NCBI RefSeq assembly: GCF_025698545.1
Contig: NC_068567.1
Location: 53,883,371-53,947,370 of the forward strand
Direction: 5' to 3'
Source: Gossypium raimondii
Lineage: Eukaryota > Streptophyta > Magnoliopsida > Malvales > Malvaceae
Length of the DNA stretch: 64,000 nt
Below are positions 16,282-64,000 of the stretch, one piece after another. Under the pieces are notes generated by a model. It saw only the letters and a list, made by a program, of their open reading frames with translations. It did not search any database and was not told the DNA's origin. The position numbers and the translations under genes are program-made. Each line of letters opens with the position of its first letter. Positions within the stretch are counted from its first letter, which is position 1.

Positions 16282-17005
16282 GGGTAAACTATTAAAATAC
16301 CCACTTTTATTTATGTTTTAGTCACTTAGCCGTTAATTGCCTTTAACGGTATAACGGTAAGCTGATGTGGCACGTTAAATCATCATTTCAAACGAAAATT
16401 TTAGGTTAAATTCTATAATTGGTCCCTATATTTTTTTTTCTTTTATGTTCTTTTAACTTTCTTTTTTTTCCCTTTATTTTTCATTCTATTCTGCTTCTCC
16501 CTCTGTTTTCCTCCTTCCTTCATTTCTTTTAACGTAGTTTTTTATATTTTCCATTTGTTAAAACTAGTCCACAAGCTCGCATTGCTCGAAAAAAATTAAA
16601 TTGTTCAAAAAAAAGAGTATAGCAATTAGTTTTAACAAATGGAAAACATAGAAAATTTACATTAAAATAAATGGGAAAGGGAGGAAAACAGAGGGAGAAG
16701 CAAAAGAGAATGGAAAATAAAGAAAAAAAAAAGGGAAAGTTAAAAGAACATAAAAGAAAAAAATTAAATTGCTTAAAACAAAAAAATATATGTACCGATT
16801 GTATAAATTAACCTAATTTTTTTGTTTTAAATAATGATTTAACGTGCCACATCAACTTATTGTTACATCGTTAATGGCAATTAATGGCTCAGTGACTAAA
16901 ATGTTACAACGTGGTAACGTAAGTAGCTAAAACGTAACATTTCAAACATAAGTGACTAAAATGTAACATGAGATAAACAAAAGTGATTATTTTGATAGTT
17001 TACCC
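16282..17005. mobile_element. Fold-back Mutator-like element (724 bp)
   Basis: Almost the whole element is an inverted repeat. GGGTAAACTATTAAAATA and the TGATGTGGCACGTTAAATCA block on the left pair with their complements on the right. Even the pyrimidine stretch CTTCTCCCTCTGTTTTCCTC at about 16,500 pairs with GAGGAAAACAGAGGGAGAAG at 16,682. A perfect 9-bp target duplication TTAATTTTA lies at 16273-16281 and 17006-17014. There is no ORF. Transcription would give a hairpin of about 340 bp. Confidence 0.88.
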
Positions 17006-42230: not shown

Positions 42231-42506
42231 TGTTAGAAGCTCAAAAATCAAGTAGAATTTTTAAGAAGAAGAAGAGAGAGCAGAGAGGAAGGGAATAAGA
42301 TAAGAAGAAGTCTGTTTTTTCAGGCCATGAAATTCCATAACCGACTCCCCACACTTTTCAGCTTAAAAGGAAAGAAAATAACAAGAAACTGACGTGACAA
42401 AACAATTAATAAAACTCATCATTTTAGTAACCTGCAACGCCCCATTTTACCAATTATTCCCCCAGTCCAAAACGTATCGTTTAACTAACTTTTCTAGCTT
42501 ACATCA
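42231..42506 (-). repeat. 3' LTR of the chromovirus
   Basis: 276 bp, TG...CA on the element strand (starts TGATGTAAGC, ends GAGCTTCTAACA). Next to it on the inner side is a purine-rich GAGCGGGTGG that can serve as polypurine tract. Confidence 0.92.
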
Positions 42507-47619: not shown

Positions 47620-47895
47620 TGTTAGAAGCTCAAAAATCAAGTAGAATTTTTAAGAAGAAGAAGAGAGAGCAGAGAGGAAGGGAATAGAATAAGAAGAAGT
47701 CTATTTTTTCAGTCCATGAAATTCCATAACCGACTCCCCACACTTTTTAGCTTAAAAGGAAAGAAAATAACAAGAAACTAACGTGGCAAAACAATTAATA
47801 AAACTCATCGTTTTAGTAACCTGCAATGCCCTGTTTTACCAATTATTCCCCCAGTCTAAAACGTATCGTTTAACTAACTTTTCTAGCTCACATCA
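47620..47895 (-). repeat. 5' LTR of the chromovirus
   Basis: 276 bp, collinear with 42231-42506. Differences are almost all transitions (for example CTG/CTA, CATCA/CATCG, AACGCCCCA/AATGCCCTG). Confidence 0.92.
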
Positions 47896-54859: not shown

Positions 54860-56565
54860 TTTGCAATGACAGTGACAAAAGAAGTTTTGATGACAAAGGG
54901 GGGATTGCAACCCTCCATAGACTAGAAGCTGTTTAGCGCTGATCAGTCTCTCCAATTCTTTCCACAAGTCTCAAATGGCGTGGTTACTGTTGAACCTCAT
55001 ATGAGGTTTTTGATGATGTTGGCAACATTCATTGGTGGTGCAATTTTTGGATGAAACACCAAATTTTAGTTATCTTCAAAAGACTTTGAATCTACTTCAG
55101 AGAAAATCTGGTGATAAGTTCTAAAAGTAAACATATTTTAATCTCATTCTTAATGCGTTTTTGGATGACTAATTATATAAATTAGTGAATTTGATGCTCC
55201 TAATCCTTTAAATTCATGTTTCTATACTTAGGAGAGCATTTGGGAACAAAAGGAGCGAAAAACAAGCCAAAATTGGACAAATAGAGCTATTTCTAGAATC
55301 CACACGGGCTGGCCACACACTCGTGTGAGCCACACGAGCTGGCCACATGTCCATGTGCCAACTTGTGTCGATATCGCACCCTACTTCCCAAATAGGCAGA
55401 AAAACTCAATTTTTGGACTTTCTGAACATTCTAAAGTCTATAAATACCAATTAGAAGAAGACCTAAGGGGGCACTCAGAGAAGATCGAAGAAAGCACTAG
55501 AAGAACGCCATCGAAATCAACTCGGAAGCAGATCTTCCTCAAGATCGAAGATATCCATTTAATTTCTTTCGAATTTTATTGAGTTTCTTTATGTCTTTTT
55601 GGTTATTCTGACTTTGAGATGTTTTTATTCAGGATTATGAACTAAATTCCCAATATACCTAGGGAAGATGTGTAACACCCCCTAACCCCAAACTGTCGCC
55701 GGAACAGGGTTACGAGGCATTACCGGACATACCAAGCAATTTAAAAATAATTCTTAAATAAATAACCAACCTATTAAAATAATTCATAAATTGTTATAAA
55801 TTTTACTAATTGATTTCATTCATTTTTAGAAAAATTTCGGCAGCATTTCTACTTATTTTTACATCAAACCCCCTGCAATTTAAAACCATATCATTTTCAA
55901 ATATAACCAATCAACCAATTCATTTCACATTCTCATTTTCTATTCTAAATACTTCTAATCAAACTCAATCTACATGATATTAATTTAAATTTAACAAAAC
56001 AATAAATAAATCAAATTAGGTAAACTTCATTCATTATAAATCTTGAACTTATAATACTAACATTTTTAACCATTTATATTAAACATAATAATCTTTATAC
56101 ACATCCTATGTACATGCCACATTATCCAAAAGGAAATATACATCACCAAAGTTGTACTGAAGTCGGGATTGATTTGGGTGCTGAACCAGAATTTTTGACT
56201 TCTACCAACCCGCGCACAGAAACAACCGTACGCTGAGTATTTTATACTCAGTGGTATTACCATAATTCAAATTATAACAATAATAAACATGTAATGCATA
56301 ATTCGTATATACAATTTAAATTCAATATCTCAACAATAGCAATTCATCAACCAATATCATATATCCACAATTTGAGTTTGAACAAATCATGAACCTTAGG
56401 TTCATTTCTCAATCTCATTTCACATTTCAATTCACAATTTAACTTTTTTCATATCATTTCAATAGCTTGTTTGACCAACTCATTCGGTTTATCATTTCAT
56501 CATTTACCCTATTAACAAAACTCGGACTTTGGCGGATACACGGATCCAACCAAACACACTAGAAT

Positions 56566-56714
56566 GGCACCTAGTGCCTCATCGGATAGTTCGAAGCAAT
56601 AGTTGACACCCAGTGTCTCATCGGCCAAGCCGAAGTAAGTTGGTACCCAGTACCTCGTTGAAACTATCCGAAGAAATATAGTGACACCCAGTGTCTCATC
56701 GACTCGAGGTCGAA
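56566..56714. repeat. Array of mini-hairpins with covarying stems in LTR B
   Basis: Successive units of about 5-bp stem and 3-nt loop: GGCAC-CTA-GTGCC (56566-56578), TCGGA-TAG-TTCGA, GACAC-CCA-GTGTC (56605-56617), TCGGC-CAA-GCCGA (56621-56633), GGTAC-CCA-GTACC (56642-56654), GACAC-CCA-GTGTC (56683-56695), and TCGAC-TCGAG-GTCGA. Stem bases change on both sides together while the loop stays CNA. Confidence 0.85.
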
Positions 56715-57011
56715 GTATCCCTGAACTCTTCCAAACCTATGGCATGCCAACTATATCCGACTCAGCCCGACTAGTTAATAGGGTATTTAAATCACATATA
56801 ACCTCAATTCAATCACAATTTCTCACATTTTCAATTCAATCATTTTCCCACCTTTCAATCAATAATTAATCCACAATTTCATACTTTTCACAACTCAATA
56901 CATTTCCATACAATTTAATACCATTCACAATTCGATTCAAATTCATTTCCCAATTTCAATCAACAAACAATTCAAATATTTATTCATATCGACTATTCAA
57001 TTTAATTCCCA

Positions 57012-57012
57012 C

Positions 57013-57048
<36 letters not shown>
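57012..57048. repeat. (TAA)n microsatellite
   Basis: About twelve perfect TAA/ATA units inside LTR B. Confidence 0.95.
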
Positions 57049-57051
<3 letters not shown>

Positions 57052-57925
57052 CCTCACATTTCATTTACTAAACACATAATTTAAAATTTAACATTTAATA
57101 ATAAATAACTTGAATTATAGTAATACAAACCATGATTTTCTCGAGTTTACTCCTCGATAATCTTCTCATTTCCCTTTGATGCTGATGCCTCGGGTTCTTT
57201 GTTAGCTACGAAAATAATAATAATTTATACTATTAATTTCAGCACTAATTATGATAAATAATTGGATTTCTATTCAATTTCTTCCTTATTCTCAATTTAA
57301 TCCTAACTAAATTCACTTACTTTCCTAACTCAATTCACACTCTATTTCTATTCAAATTCCATCCAAACTCAAATTTAACTATCAAAATTTCAGCATATTT
57401 TCTTAATTTCGAATTTCCCTCAATTTTAGCCCTAAAACATAAAATTTATAGTTTCTTTTACAATTTAATCCTCTTATCAATTCCAATCAAAATTTCTATC
57501 AAATAAACCCTCAATTCCATCATTTATTCAACATAAACCCTATTCAAAAATCTATTAACTTTCTAAATATCAATTTAATTCCATCAAAACTTTGTTTTAA
57601 AACTTCTAAAACATTAGAATTAAGAGAAAAGGGCTAAATTGACTTACCAAATTAAATTTCAATCCTCAAAACCCTATTTTCCTATTTTCTTCTTTCTTTC
57701 TTTCTCCCTGTTTCTTCTCTGTTTCGTCACTTCTATTCTGTTTCTTTCTTTTCTTTTCTTTGTTTTTATTTCCTTTTATTTCATTTACTTTATATTATAT
57801 TAATATCTATTTAATATCAATATTCATTTTACATTTGGTCACACTTATATTTTTACATTTGTGCCAATAGTTTTATTACAATTGTCATTATTTAATTTGT
57901 TTACCAAATAAAAATCTCATGATAT

Positions 57926-57956
57926 AATTAATTAATTAATTAATTAATTAATTAAT
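57926..57956. repeat. (TTAA)n microsatellite
   Basis: Seven to eight units of AATT/TTAA inside LTR B. Self-complementary. Confidence 0.95.
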
Positions 57957-60173
57957 ATCTTTTACTTAAATTTTAAGTAAATAATAATTATAATACAAGT
58001 GTATATATATATGTTATTACACTTGTACCATCCTATCACCAAACATTTGTCTTAATTTTAACTTATTCCATAATAAAATAATATAATTAATATAAATTAC
58101 CATTTAAATAAATAATTATAATAATTATAATAATTATATACATATAACATTTATATATATCTTAATTAAAATCTTAGATTTTAAGAGTTTATGCCGCCTC
58201 ATTTCATATAAATGGCTTAATTGCCATTTTAGCCCTTTTCACTTTCTTTTAATCTATAATTAGACTTTCACTCTTTATTCAATTTAATCCTTTTTACTAA
58301 TTACTCATAATTAAACTAAATTCACCTATCCAAAACCTACTTAAACACACAACTAGCCTCGTAAATATTTCTAATAATTATTTCTGAACTCAAATTACTA
58401 AGACGGAGGCCCGATATTATACTTTTTCGATGCCCGCGAATTTTGGGTCATTACAAGATGAAACCTATGATGAATCTTATTATTTGATTTCTGATTTATG
58501 CGATAAATACTTGATTCTTGTTCTCAATTATGTATGCTTATTTCTTGTTTTAATATTTCTGAGATATTAATTCAAGTTTAATGTGCTTATTTCAGTGGAG
58601 CAAAAGTCCATGTTTAAGAGTAGATTTAGCATAATTGAATGGAGTTGCATGCAATCCTAGAAATAGGACGACATAAATCTACCGAATTAGAGTCAAATCT
58701 AATAGGGGAATCTATAGATTGAGTTAATGTGACAATATGAGTTTTAATTAGAAAAAGATTTCAATTAATCAACCTAGAGTCAGTTGCTCTTACTCTCAAA
58801 AGAGCTATTAACATAATTTAGGGATTTCTACGGATCAAGACACAAGTGAATAAATCGTTTAATTTAGATTTATAATAATAGGTGAAATCTAGGTGGATTC
58901 TTTCCTGAGTATTGTCTATCTCATTGGTTATCTTCGATTATTTCCTATTTCATTCTCTGTTGCATTCTTAGTTAGAGTAGTTTAGTAATTTTAGATTAAA
59001 AACAATCACTCCAATTTGTCGACTAAATAATAGAAAAACGGTAATTACTAGTACTTTTAGTCCTCGTGGATACGATATTCCCTACTCACCATAACTATAC
59101 TATTGTTCAATAGGTGCGCTTGCCTTAGTCGTATTTATAGTTAATTTAGTGACCATCATCTGGTGAAGTTGATATCAAGCTTGTAGGCCCTAATCTTTAT
59201 GTGGTGCAATTTACCAGTGATGCAACTAGGTATTGGGTTTTAAACCAAAGACCTTGGTACATCTATAATAAACCTTTTATTGTAAAAAAGAAAGAACCAA
59301 GCATGAAGAGATTTGATTTTGATATGTGTAAATTACATATTTGGGTTTATCTCTGTTATGTTCCATTAGAGCTTTATATGAAACTAGGACTGAGTTATAT
59401 TGCAAGTGCTCTTGGTTTGCTTCTTTATATGGATAGTATCATGACTTATTCCTACTTCTATTGATGCCAAATTAAAGGATGGTTCTACTTGTGATGTTCT
59501 AGATGATGTATCTTAGATGCCCCAAAGATGGTTTAGATTCTCAACTTTTGGACATGAGGATAAATATTATTTGTAAAGAAATGGGTTTCTAAGAATGGAA
59601 AAGAAGTAAATGTGTTAACTTCTAATGGGAAGCATAATGATGCTATAGTTATTGAGCCTAGTAGTGTGAGAGGTAAGGCTTGTTCCCCTTAGAAATCAAA
59701 TGATTCAACAAGAAATAAGAAAAAGAAAGGTTTATTTGCGGGTTCATCAAACAAGTTTTCTTTATTAGTATAAGTGGAAATTACTCACACAGTATCTGAG
59801 ATGGAAGAAAACTCAATGGGTGTTTTAATGAATCTGAATCTCTCAAGAATTCTAGGGCTGTTGCTGTAAAAGTTGCTAATGTAACAACCCGTTTCTGAGT
59901 CTGATCGGAACAGTGGTTTCGGGACCACTTAACTGAGTCAAAATATTTATTTTATTATTTTAATAAGTTTTACAGCATGAAAGAAATATCGTGTGAAAAT
60001 TCCGTAAAGAAATTTTACCGATTAAATGGTTAATTCGGTAAAAAGGACTAAATCGCATAACGCATAAAATATGAGTTCTATTAGTAGTAAAATGGTTTAA
60101 ATGATTATGGAATTAATTATATAAGTCCTTGCATGGTAAATATACCATTAGTTGCATGGGTGGACAAATATGG

Positions 60174-62294
60174 TGTGATAGCCCAAAATAGGGCCTAATC
60201 GGAATAGTGGTTTCGTAACCACAAATCCAAAGTGAAATAGTTTAATTTTATAAAGTTTTATTAATTTTAGATTGATTGAAATATTGTGTGAAAATATGGA
60301 TAGGAAAATTTAATGATTTAGTGCCTAATTGAATTTTTAGGACTAAATTGAGAAAAATACAAAGTGTGTCTAATTAGTGACTAAATGACTTAATTGAATT
60401 ATTGCATGAAATTGGAAGTGTTTATGTGGAAATTAGACCATAAATTATTGATATGGACACAAAAGGGTAATTCTAGAAAAAATATCTAAGTAATGGGCCA
60501 AGGACATTTTTGTCCAAATTGAGAAAAAGACAAAATAAAGTGAAAATAAGTGTCCATCTTCTTCAAAATCAGACGTTTGCTGTCAAAAAAATTCATGTCA
60601 CCATAGCTAGGGTTCTTGATTTTTCTAAGCTCAATTATCAAGAAAGAAGAAATAGTGGAAGTGATCGAGGAAAAGAGAAGGTTATCGACTAATTTACAAA
60701 AATAGTCGTTTTGCATCCGAGGTAAGTTATGTGTAAATAATAGTTATATTTTTATAAATTGTGAATTATATTTGATATGTGAATTAATATTGAATGTGGA
60801 AGAAAATTGTTCATGAATTATTCAAGTGATAAAGTGTTGAAATAAAGTGTTAAGTGTAAATCCCCGGTTGAACTTAGGAATAGAAGTGGAAACAAGTGAC
60901 ATGTCACTAGAGATCAGTGTTACAGTGTTACAATGAGTCCCGGGTGCTGGGTGATCTAGCATGTGTTGCAGACACCTGACAGCTTGTGTGAGCAGGCCCG
61001 TGGACATTTCCAGTGTTATTGATCAGTGGTAGCTTCAGCTACATTTCAGTGGTAGCTTCGGCTACATATCAGTGTGGCACTTATGTGCTAACTCTCTACG
61101 TATCTGTGTATATTCCGAGTGTTCAACGGGATTAATAATGAGTTAAAGTGAATATGAAATGAAGTGTGCATGCAGGTACAATTGAAAGAATTGAGCATAT
61201 GTGATAAATGTTAAGTGTGAAAATGTATATGCAAGTGAATTGGTAAGATTGTGCATGTGTAAGTGATTAAAATTGCTAAGAAATGTTTTGATTAGTTATA
61301 TGTTAAAAGTGTTAATTATTAAATGAGTAATTATTGTTTACATGTAACTTACTAAGCTATTTGTAGCTTACACATTTTCTCATTTCCTTTGTTTTTTAGT
61401 GATTTAAGCTTGCTCGAATTTGGGATCGTCGGAGCTTGTATCACACTATCATAACCATCTCGGTATTATGTGTTTTTCAGAATGTTTAAAACTATGGCAT
61501 GTATAGAGTCTTAATCATTTTGAGTATGTTCATATGATATGGCTAAGATTAGCTATTGAAATGGTTAGTAAAGATTATGTTTTGGTGTTATATATGCGTA
61601 AATGGTCGTTAATACAAAGAAGCAGTTTCTTTGACAGCAGCAGTGACGTGAATGTGAAAAATCACCATAAATAATAGAAATGGAATTAGAGAGTGAATGG
61701 TATATAGAATTAAATCTTATCAAGTCTATTTTTACATGAAAGAAACGGTATAGGCAAAGGAATTTTATATTCTGAGATATTTGAACTTTAGTGTGACAGG
61801 GTCAGAATGGTTTTTGAAGTCCCCTGTTCTAACTTTAGAAAATCATTATAAATTTCACAGAAATAATTATAGGTCATAATTTATATGTCTAGATTCCTTA
61901 GTGAGTCTATTTTCAAAAGAAATAAATGATAACCTTATATGAATTCTGTACAATGAGATAATTGATTTTTAGTGCCAAGAGGTTAGAACTGTCAAGTAGT
62001 GAAACATGGGATACTTTAATGAATAAACTGTAGTAATTGGATAAACCAAAAATTCTAAAAATTTTATGGTAAGAAGGTATATGTGTCTAGTTTCAGGGGA
62101 AATTTACGGATTTAAATTTTGAGTTTCGTAACTCAAGATATAATTAAATTAGTAACAGTCGCGCACGTGGACAGTTTTGTTGTGAACAATGAATTTAATT
62201 TTAAAAGCAAATTTTTATGCTCCGAATTGGTAAGTTAAGTTGGATAACATCTCGTACTCAATTCCAGCGATGGTCTCGGATAAGGGGTGTTACA
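60174..62294 (+). mobile_element. Solo LTR D (2,121 bp), nested in LTR C
   Basis: Starts TGTGATAGCCCAAAATAGGG and ends AAGGGGTGTTACA, with a perfect 5-bp target duplication TATGG at 60169-60173 and 62295-62299. Its AATCGGAATAGTGGTTTCG block matches the start of LTR C (GATCGGAACAGTGGTTTCGG), so C and D are relatives. No ORF. Confidence 0.87.
60895..61090. repeat. Palindrome and mini-hairpin array in LTR D
   Basis: A perfect palindrome AGTGACATGTCACT at 60895-60908 is followed by hairpins GTAGC-TTCA-GCTAC (61029-61042), GTAGC-TTCG-GCTAC (61052-61065) and TGGCAC-TTAT-GTGCTA (about 61075-61090). LTR C has the same palindrome and then its own array. Confidence 0.8.
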
Positions 62295-63094
62295 TATGGG
62301 CTTAGTGGAAATTATTTTTATGGTTTATAATAAAGGTTAATTTGGTAAAATGGTTATTAATATTAGAATTAAAGTAAAAACAAAACAAGATTTGGAGTGT
62401 TCATCTTTACTCCATCGATATTTTGAAGCTTAGAAAGCGAAAGTTAGGGCTTTTACATTCAACCAAGATTAGATCCTCAATTAAGGTACAATTTTTATTC
62501 CGTTTTTAATGGTTTTTACGTTTTTGAGCTCGTTGCAGCTCAATCTAGCTAGCCCATGCTTTAATTTCTGAAATTATTGATGATTTTGAGTTAAGCCATT
62601 GTTGAATGCTTGGTTGTTTAGATGTTTAATGGTAAAATATTGATGGTTGTTAATAGATATACAAGTTTTATAAAGTGATTTTTGACAAAAATGTAAAAAA
62701 AAAAGGGATTAATTTGTAAAAGATAGAAATATGGTGGTTTGAAATGTGAATAAAATGAAAATATGGGCTGCTATGAGGTTAAGTGAAATTCTGCTGTAAC
62801 GGGTTTTGGTTTAATTGTGTAAAAGTACCATTTTATGTGAAAAGGACTAAATTGCATAGTAGTTAAAAGTATAGGGGCAAATGTGTAATTTACCAAATAT
62901 TTGTGAATTGGGCTAAATTGAATTGAATAATTACTGAAAATATTGAATTGATATTATATAGATCAGGATAAGCAAATATCGGAACTTGATCAGTGGAAAC
63001 AAAAGTTAGACAGGTAGACGAAAGTATCTAAGCAAATACGAGGTAAGTCCGTATAGCTAGAATCGAACTATTAAACAATTGCAATAGTATTTAA

Positions 63095-63472
63095 ATGTAT
63101 GTATTTAATTGAATTGATTATATGTATGTGATTTGAGAAAGTATGCGAATTGAGTAATTAAATGTATGTATTTAATTAAATCGATTATATGTATGTGATT
63201 TGAGAAAGTATGTGAATTGAATAATTAAATGTATGTATTTAATTGAATTGATTATATGTATATGATTTGAGAAAGTATGCGAATTGAGTAATTAAATGTA
63301 TGTAGTTAATTGAATTGATTATATGTATATGATTTGAGAAAGTATGCGAATTGAGTATTTAAATGTTTAAATCGATTATATATATGTGATTTGAGAAGGT
63401 ATGCGAATTAAGTATTTAAATGTATGTACTTAATTGAATAGATTATATATATGTGATTTGAGAAATTGAATT
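63095..63472 (+). repeat. 67-bp tandem repeat, about 5.5 copies, in LTR C
   Basis: Unit ATGTATGTATTTAATTGAAT...GAATTGAGTAATTAA repeated with few changes. Copies 5 and 6 are shortened. Units also contain GATTATATGTATGTGATTTG. Confidence 0.93.
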
Positions 63473-63550
63473 ATTGATCATTGAATGCTTAAATGATGAA
63501 TTTGAATAGTTACCGAGTCTCGTTTGGACTGTAGGAAGTTGTTAGATACG

Positions 63551-63795
63551 AGTGACATGTCACTAGGTTACCGATTTGGTCGAGCTCCTACATTTGTTGA
63601 GGACTCACTACAGCTCATATGAGCTTACCGATATTTTAGCTCGTAAGAGCCTACTGTTTTCAGTTCATTAGAGCTTACCATTTTAGCTCGTATGAGCTTA
63701 CTATTCAGCTCATCAAAGCTTACCGTTTCAGCTCAATAGAGCCTACTATTTATCAGCTCAGGAGGAGTTTATCGTTCATGGCTCGAAAGAGCGAA
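63551..63795 (+). repeat. Palindrome plus array of eight GCTC/GAGC mini-hairpins in LTR C
   Basis: The perfect palindrome AGTGACATGTCACT (63551-63564) precedes about eight units at 26-30 bp spacing, each a GCTC-N4-GAGC stem: AGCTCATATGAGCT, AGCTCGTAAGAGC, AGCTCGTATGAGCT, GCTCAATAGAGC, GGCTCGAAAGAGC and weaker ones. Units are separated by TTACCG/CTACTG words. Confidence 0.85.
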
Positions 63796-64000
63796 AAGGA
63801 TAATGTATTGACAGATTACCGATAAATACACTTAGTGTGTATCACCCGAGTATCTATCAATATTCTACGAAGTTCAACGGGCATAATTACTGTTAATGAT
63901 CATATGAATAAGATATGTGTTTATATGGATGAATTATTATTTATAATGATCTACTGGTTATATGAATGAATTACAGTTTATACGAATAGAAATGAATTGC

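Follow-up and report, generated by a model that had tools for sequence, protein, structure and literature searches.

Small-hairpin arrays in long terminal repeats of Gossypium raimondii: a possible leader fold kept by selection

Retroviral leaders carry packaging and dimerisation structures, and plant long terminal repeat (LTR) retrotransposons, e.g. Retand, carry fast-changing tandem units in their non-coding parts. To our knowledge, little is known of the signals that plant LTR retrotransposons use for packaging and in their leaders. We analysed a stretch of 64,000 nt from Gossypium raimondii (the window; contig NC_068567.1, positions 53,883,371 to 53,947,370), in which three LTRs, called B, C and D, harbour rows of tiny hairpins. 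In contrast to Retand-type repeats, the tandem units are here hairpins, in a comparable place in the families B, C, D, E, F and probably G and H. The reading that we favour, at a probability of roughly 0.4, is that the arrays would form a fold in the leader that is kept by selection and supplied by slippage and template switching. Selection would fit the stems that are held while loops are free in C, and the paired changes of a terminal hairpin that occurs singly.

Residual conservation of the long R regions of retroviral LTRs has been tied to stem-loops (PMC3601003, in the part available). The cotton arrays likewise are structured LTR stretches conserved as stem-loops, but, compared with that part of the report, they consist of tandem tiny hairpins whose letters are specific to each family. 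For BARE, distinct RNA pools for translation and packaging have been described (PMC3735527, in the part available). As in retroviral leaders and BARE, a structure downstream of the splice donor could mark unspliced RNA; the cotton arrays are known from DNA alone, and the intron of BARE lies, according to the same excerpt, in gag and not in the LTR. Template switching in ribosomal RNA genes can introduce several compensatory changes at once, the loop can persist and 4-nt loops are enriched (PMC8794818, in the part available). Stem changes in pairs about a retained turn, and 4-nt loops, are common to that system and the cotton arrays, whereas the setting in ribosomal RNA genes differs, as do the held stems and variable loops of C. 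In the literature library searched, no title recognised as dealing with such hairpin arrays in LTRs of cotton or Malvaceae came up, and the main text of PMC12557855 makes no mention of 'hairpin', 'palindrom', 'inverted repeat', 'secondary structure' or 'tandem'.

B, C and D are each solo LTRs with TG...CA ends and a 5-bp target duplication, devoid of an internal part (Table 1). The genome searched comprises 750.8 Mb in 281 contigs, the window included. A first look yielded 768 candidates for D, 892 for C, 2951 for B, 1989 for E and 942 for F, of which 40 were scored per family. B, C and D are multicopy families. The copy set comprised 90 loci with 1500-nt flanks, namely 30 B, 30 D, 14 young C and 16 old C copies, with the intermediate copy L045 counted among the latter. 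A motif scan of these loci and flanks detected TGGTATCAGAGC, resembling a primer-binding site, after the LTR end in seven of the 90 (three D, two C and two B, the B copies being L069 and L087). We take this primer site to be of the tRNA-Met type, and its position next to the LTR end in copies elsewhere fixes the sense strand. The LTR families carrying arrays may be Ty3/Gypsy elements (chromovirus, Tekay-like).

All hairpins named in the first-pass annotation were located in B, D and C, and so was the identical palindrome common to C and D, the 14-mer AGTGACATGTCACT at 60895 and 63551. The descriptions of the units needed amendment. The CNA loop reported as fixed in B conflates two classes of hairpin within a single 38-39 nt unit; the GRYAC hairpins do share CCA, and the CTA loop of the window copy was not found in the other 29 B copies. 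Both loops given for D, TTCA and TTCG, occur, TTCG being the usual state and TTCA a minority one. The GCTC/GAGC array of C with 4-nt loops, described as about eight units, is present from 63612 with some units imperfect. Compared with 1000 first-order Markov shuffles per array (loops of 3-5 nt), stems of at least 4 bp number six in B (mean 1.95, p 0.005), seven in C (2.44, p 0.002) and six in D (2.6, p 0.025). For stems of at least 5 bp, the values are six in B (0.55, p 0.000), three in C (0.69, p 0.033) and three in D (0.83, p 0.036); the excess is weakest in D. Across the copies, the numbers of hairpins per copy and in shuffles are 5.57 and 1.41 in B, 6.5 and 2.49 in old C, 4.07 and 2.0 in young C, 4.3 and 1.79 in D, and 7.5 and 2.83 in E.

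Array-bearing LTRs of E, F and the probable families G and H were met in the flanks of fetched copies. Family E came to light beside the B copy L072, and L094 was the copy in which it was read. In E, ATACAGG-ATTT-CCTGTAT lies near the site where C and D carry AGTGA-CATG-TCACT, and GTACACT-TTG-AGTGTAC forms the terminal hairpin. At ~2655-2670 of L072, the B LTR end is immediately followed by GATACAGG, the head hairpin of the E array, so that B seemingly inserted into the hairpin of E. The units of F (L018 and L095) have a constant core, TAGCCYGGAC, and differing complementary arms, with folding z-scores of -3.7 to -6.5. The probable G (flank of L017) has AGCTC-TCAC-GAGCT, in the sense as assigned, and the probable H (flank of L016) AGCAC-GTTA-GTGCT, each in one copy. 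The loops TTCG (D and E), TACG (old C), GAAA (C and E) and GTAA (young C) would be stable tetraloops, which is suggestive, their number being too small for more. Positions 2950-3350 of L045 and the region at ~55.2 kb of the window (minus strand) abound in CACACGGGCGTGTG-type palindromes and represent another kind of hairpin array. Rfam gave no matches in the window. Searches of viral contigs gave 0, 2 and 0 stretches, the two (L092 and L093) being regarded as chance matches.

Constraint was examined inside C. The spacer TAYYG served to delimit its units, independently of the stem, and those of 20-29 nt were kept; the conservation of the spacer is uninformative, since it was the cutting rule. 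Among 86 units from 30 copies, 54 of them distinct, the 10 stem columns have 0.13-0.91 bits and the 4 loop columns 1.33-1.61 bits. Two columns just beyond the stem are low as well (0.23 and 0.76 bits), and thus the stem is not the sole held part. Within C, arms are held and loops are free, and stem turnover does not apply there.

Paired change was found elsewhere. The pattern CGATGAGNNACTGGGTNNC for the B hairpin, which itself fixes the hairpin core, has 2093 matches genome-wide and none in the backward control. Pairs were analysed in the 100 matches listed, all on one contig: the outer pair is Watson-Crick in 94, the inner pair in 92 and both in 87, whereas 10000 permutations of the right arm gave a mean of 38.6 with both paired and a maximum of 56. 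The both-paired combinations among these matches are AC/GT (48), GC/GC (29), GT/AC (8) and AT/AT (2). As all four two-pair combinations are seen, at least three paired changes have occurred. In the terminal hairpin, 90.9% of the cells of 11 rows are paired, compared with 7-71% in slid versions, and the six unpaired cells lie in the outermost pair (five) and the next one (one). Cells changed on both sides number 14 vs 6.3 in shuffles, one-sided changes are absent, and the covariation score is 0.509 vs 0.222 in shuffles. The earlier claim of a fold kept while letters turn over is partly supported: it holds for the B hairpin and the terminal hairpin and not inside C, where there is no paired change. 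Covariation among copies within one family was tried and set aside as uninformative, because the differences look like post-insertion decay.

Upstream of the array, the donor consensus GAGGTAAGT is present without mismatch in 22/30 D, 12/14 young C, 15/16 old C and 25/30 B copies; at no more than one mismatch, it is found in 24 of 30 D and all 30 B copies, and one F copy has it too. A TATA motif lies 60-120 nt upstream of the donor in 21/30 D, 12/14 young C and 14/16 old C copies; within this interval it is lacking in all 30 B copies and in the D copy of the window (L001). When eight copies (of D, C, L045 and F) are aligned, the pre-donor stretch is conserved between divergent flanks; the F copy is without a TATA motif. 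With the TATA motif and the donor upstream of it, the C/D array probably sits in the transcribed leader, in a putative leader intron inside the LTR. Acceptor-like motifs, at sites chosen by eye, are patchy across the families: TTGCAGG is found at locus positions 2000-2700 in 19/30 B and 11/16 old C copies, a TATAG-type site in 7/14 young C copies and TTTTTAGTGATT in 1/30 D copies, the D acceptor having been assigned by eye. The distance from donor to array differs among C copies. A 67-bp tandem repeat occupies 63086-63465 of LTR C, between the donor and the array.

The preferred explanation treats the arrays as a module shared by related families of LTR retrotransposons. In the sense direction, the module of C and D comprises the TATA motif, a short putative exon, the GAGGTAAGT donor, a head hairpin, the small-hairpin array and a single terminal hairpin, followed by a TTCAACGGG tract, a putative acceptor and the LTR end. 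B carries the donor, the array and the shared 3' LTR part, the last being common with old C in profile comparisons. We infer from order and place that the B array belongs to the same module. Hairpin units may multiply through slippage, old units may be swapped for other hairpins, possibly produced by template switching, and units unable to pair would drop out of transposing lineages. Each process would fit a part of the data: slippage the variable number of units, and template switching the fixed cores with different arms.

Several results weigh against a leader fold kept by selection and against a common module. Profiles of C and D are homologous upstream of the array, with weak matches only downstream (expectation values 0.05-0.9), and the array and upstream part of B match neither C nor D. 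The B combinations are a few inherited unit types, and the number of independent paired events is at least three, not 87, which is no event count because B copies and units are related. The 11 rows of the terminal hairpin were chosen and typed by hand. Four of them are B unit types, the H row was placed by reading (the aligner shifted its outer part by one column), and the row GTACAC-TTCAG-GTGTAC is the sole text among the matches listed of 1040 flank-pattern matches. Two measures of this hairpin do not exceed shuffles, namely pairs changed on both sides (4 vs 3.1; 140 of 500 shuffles) and further pair types (6 vs 6.8; 448 of 500). Covariation as proposed for the arrays strongly exceeds shuffles in the B permutation and in three of the five terminal-hairpin measures, with few independent lineages, and does not in the other two.

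Folding data stand on both sides. In F, short-loop hairpins number 2.5 per copy vs 2.6 in shuffles, without enrichment. A scan for at least 4 hairpins per 200 nt flagged the arrays of only 50 of the 90 copies (29/30 B, 13/16 old C, 5/14 young C and 3/30 D); it is insensitive, as the arrays of E, F, G and H went unflagged, and outside the arrays it flagged one place, in L045. In favour of a fold, scans of 17 copies, with 100 shuffles each, gave mean z-scores at the array, sense and antisense, of -4.9 and -3.5 in young C, -4.0 and -3.2 in old C, and -3.6 and -5.7 in B, the lowest in their scans. In D, the z-score falls to -1.7 at the array and to the same value 480 nt beyond it, and the whole array of one D copy has non-significant values of -0.84 and -0.06; D is weakly structured yet has many similar copies. 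Whole arrays fold on both strands, about equally in C (one copy) and better on the antisense strand in B and E (one copy each) and F (two copies). An RNA of the sense strand would be expected to tolerate G-U better than A-C. Non-Watson-Crick stem cells, GT and AC, number 11 and 8 in B, 13 and 30 in C, and 32 and 6 in D, without a clear excess of wobble in the sense strand; 22 of the 30 AC cells of C lie in two units, and 29 of the 32 GT cells of D in the terminal hairpin. A strand-neutral search gave per-copy GT/AC values of 4.5/1.5 in E, 1.4/0.27 in D, 1.07/0.07 in young C, 0.81/0.81 in old C, 1.5/0 in F and 0.07/0 in B, where shuffles already give ~1.3-2.1 to 1; the comparison of strands is weakened by composition skew and few lineages.

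The alternative that survives best, a serious one that we nevertheless hold to be doubtful, invokes mutation only. Palindromic units would slip and multiply, and template switching, in which replication or reverse transcription snaps back at a hairpin, would rewrite one arm to match its partner, giving paired changes without selection. The pattern described in the available part of PMC8794818 fits B, where TGG is kept (by the pattern used), and F, where TAGCCYGGAC is kept, the arms differing in both; this may be a template-switch signature. In the F copy L095, moreover, two units with ~30 nt in common pair with different distal arms, as judged by eye. The varying unit number of the C array, the folding of both strands and the unclear wobble bias also speak for mutation. 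However, C holds stems while loops diverge, the reverse of arm rewriting, and C, D, E and F each have only one terminal hairpin, which nonetheless changes in pairs. Slippage from one palindromic unit, which had been put forward as a possible cause, meets a further obstacle. With tandem arrays of period 18-80 and hairpins of at least 5 bp with at least 2 G/C, 94 of 148 arrays overlapping the module bear hairpins (33 of 63 distinct), vs 4 of 171 elsewhere in the same loci and the window (4 of 141 distinct), copies of one family not being independent; G and H, both probable families, account for two of these four. Slippage alone is therefore insufficient.

Selection at the DNA level is unlikely. 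Here, the arrays would be dyad half-sites at which a dimeric protein binds double-stranded DNA, e.g. an enhancer of the element or a boundary lying downstream of the start. The half-sites AGCTC/GAGCT of C are held on either side of a spacer that varies but mostly measures 4 nt, C and D have the perfect palindrome AGTGACATGTCACT in common, and folding is symmetrical between strands. In contrast, the constant half-sites and spacing expected of such a system are not seen: half-sites are held in C and vary among families and B units, and the spacer ranges from 3 to 5 nt or more. A fixed protein site would predict constant letters rather than paired change. Finally, functionless inheritance of one old palindromic minisatellite by ordinary mutation is very improbable: AGCTC-type units in C, E and the probable G, with traces in D and F, do indicate that this array type is old, but neutral decay would strike stems and loops equally, which is not so in C, and B, D, F and H have other hairpin types.

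A leader fold kept by selection, supplied by slippage and template switching, is the reading that we retain, by no wide margin. The region would be transcribed and spliced, and selection would act on RNA. The most likely use of the fold would be as a structure on the unspliced leader RNA, serving as a packaging mark for Gag or in tuned intron retention; an array lying behind the donor brings to mind the leader structures by which unspliced RNA is marked. In a stronger form, which seems rather unlikely to us, selection would be blind to the letters and see only the row of hairpins, refreshed by template switching; lying behind the donor, the row would be carried only by unspliced genomic RNA, packaged or untranslated.

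Table 1. Positions of the LTRs B, C and D and of their arrays and signals in the window
Feature	Position	Strand	Remarks
Solo LTR B	55671..58455	-	starts TGTAATGACCC, ends GGGGGTGTTACA; target duplication AGATG (plus-strand letters) on both sides; relatives L061-L090
B acceptor-like site	55869-55878	-	TTGCAG/G; judged by eye
B longer hairpin	56233..56251	-	CTGAGTAT-AAA-ATACTCAG; upstream of acceptor-like TTGCAG/G
B array	56566..56713	-	four units of 38-39 nt, each made up of CTTCG..CGATGAG and a G[R][Y]AC-TGG-GT[R][Y]C hairpin
B hairpin GGCAC/GTGCC	56566-56578	-	last unit, taken as terminal-hairpin position
B hairpin GACAC/GTGTC	56605-56617 and 56683-56695	-	
B hairpin TCGGC/GCCGA	56621-56633	-	
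B hairpin GGTAC/GTACC	56642-56654	-	
B splice-donor consensus	57047..57057	-	GTGAGGTAAGT; upstream of the array in the sense direction
LTR C, 5' part	59880..60173	+	target duplication GCTAA at 59875-59879; split by D
Solo LTR D, inside C	60174..62294	+	target duplication TATGG at 60169-60173 and 62295-62299; relatives L001-L030
D splice-donor consensus	60717..60727	+	CCGAGGTAAGT
D head hairpin	60895..60908	+	AGTGA-CATG-TCACT
D array	61029..61065	+	two GTAGC-TTCR-GCTAC units (61029-61042, 61052-61065)
D terminal hairpin	61075..61090	+	TGGCAC-TTAT-GTGCTA
D longer hairpin	61353..61370	+	TAAGCTA-TTTG-TAGCTTA; precedes acceptor-like run TTTTTTAG
LTR C, 3' part	62300..64000	+	extends past the window to window-equivalent 64724
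C TATA motif	62955..62964	+	TATATAGATC; ~85 nt ahead of the donor
C splice-donor consensus	63038..63048	+	ACGAGGTAAGT
C head hairpin	63551..63564	+	AGTGA-CATG-TCACT; loop CTTG in 15/16 old C copies
C array	63612..63792	+	AGCTC-N4-GAGCT units, period ~23 nt; final unit GGCTC-GAAA-GAGCG
C terminal hairpin	63826..63842	+	ATACAC-TTAGT-GTGTAT

Other repeats were noted in the window. Direct repeats of 276 bp at 42231-42506 and 47620-47895, 95% alike and 5.4 kb apart, resemble the LTRs of a further element. At 584-871 there are AT-rich repeats, inverted and direct (arms of 62-63 nt, 98% complementary), and large imperfect inverted repeats are found at 16316-16901 (arms of 127 and 113 nt), possibly an element resembling a miniature inverted-repeat transposable element.

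If the favoured reading is true, the arrays would be a structure-only element that is present across several families of one genome, with its own letters in each, and that supplies many natural compensatory variants. The 2093 matches of one B hairpin pattern indicate that such variants are numerous and make the question testable. Thus, the arrays may serve as a test bed for separating selection on a fold from template-switch mutation.

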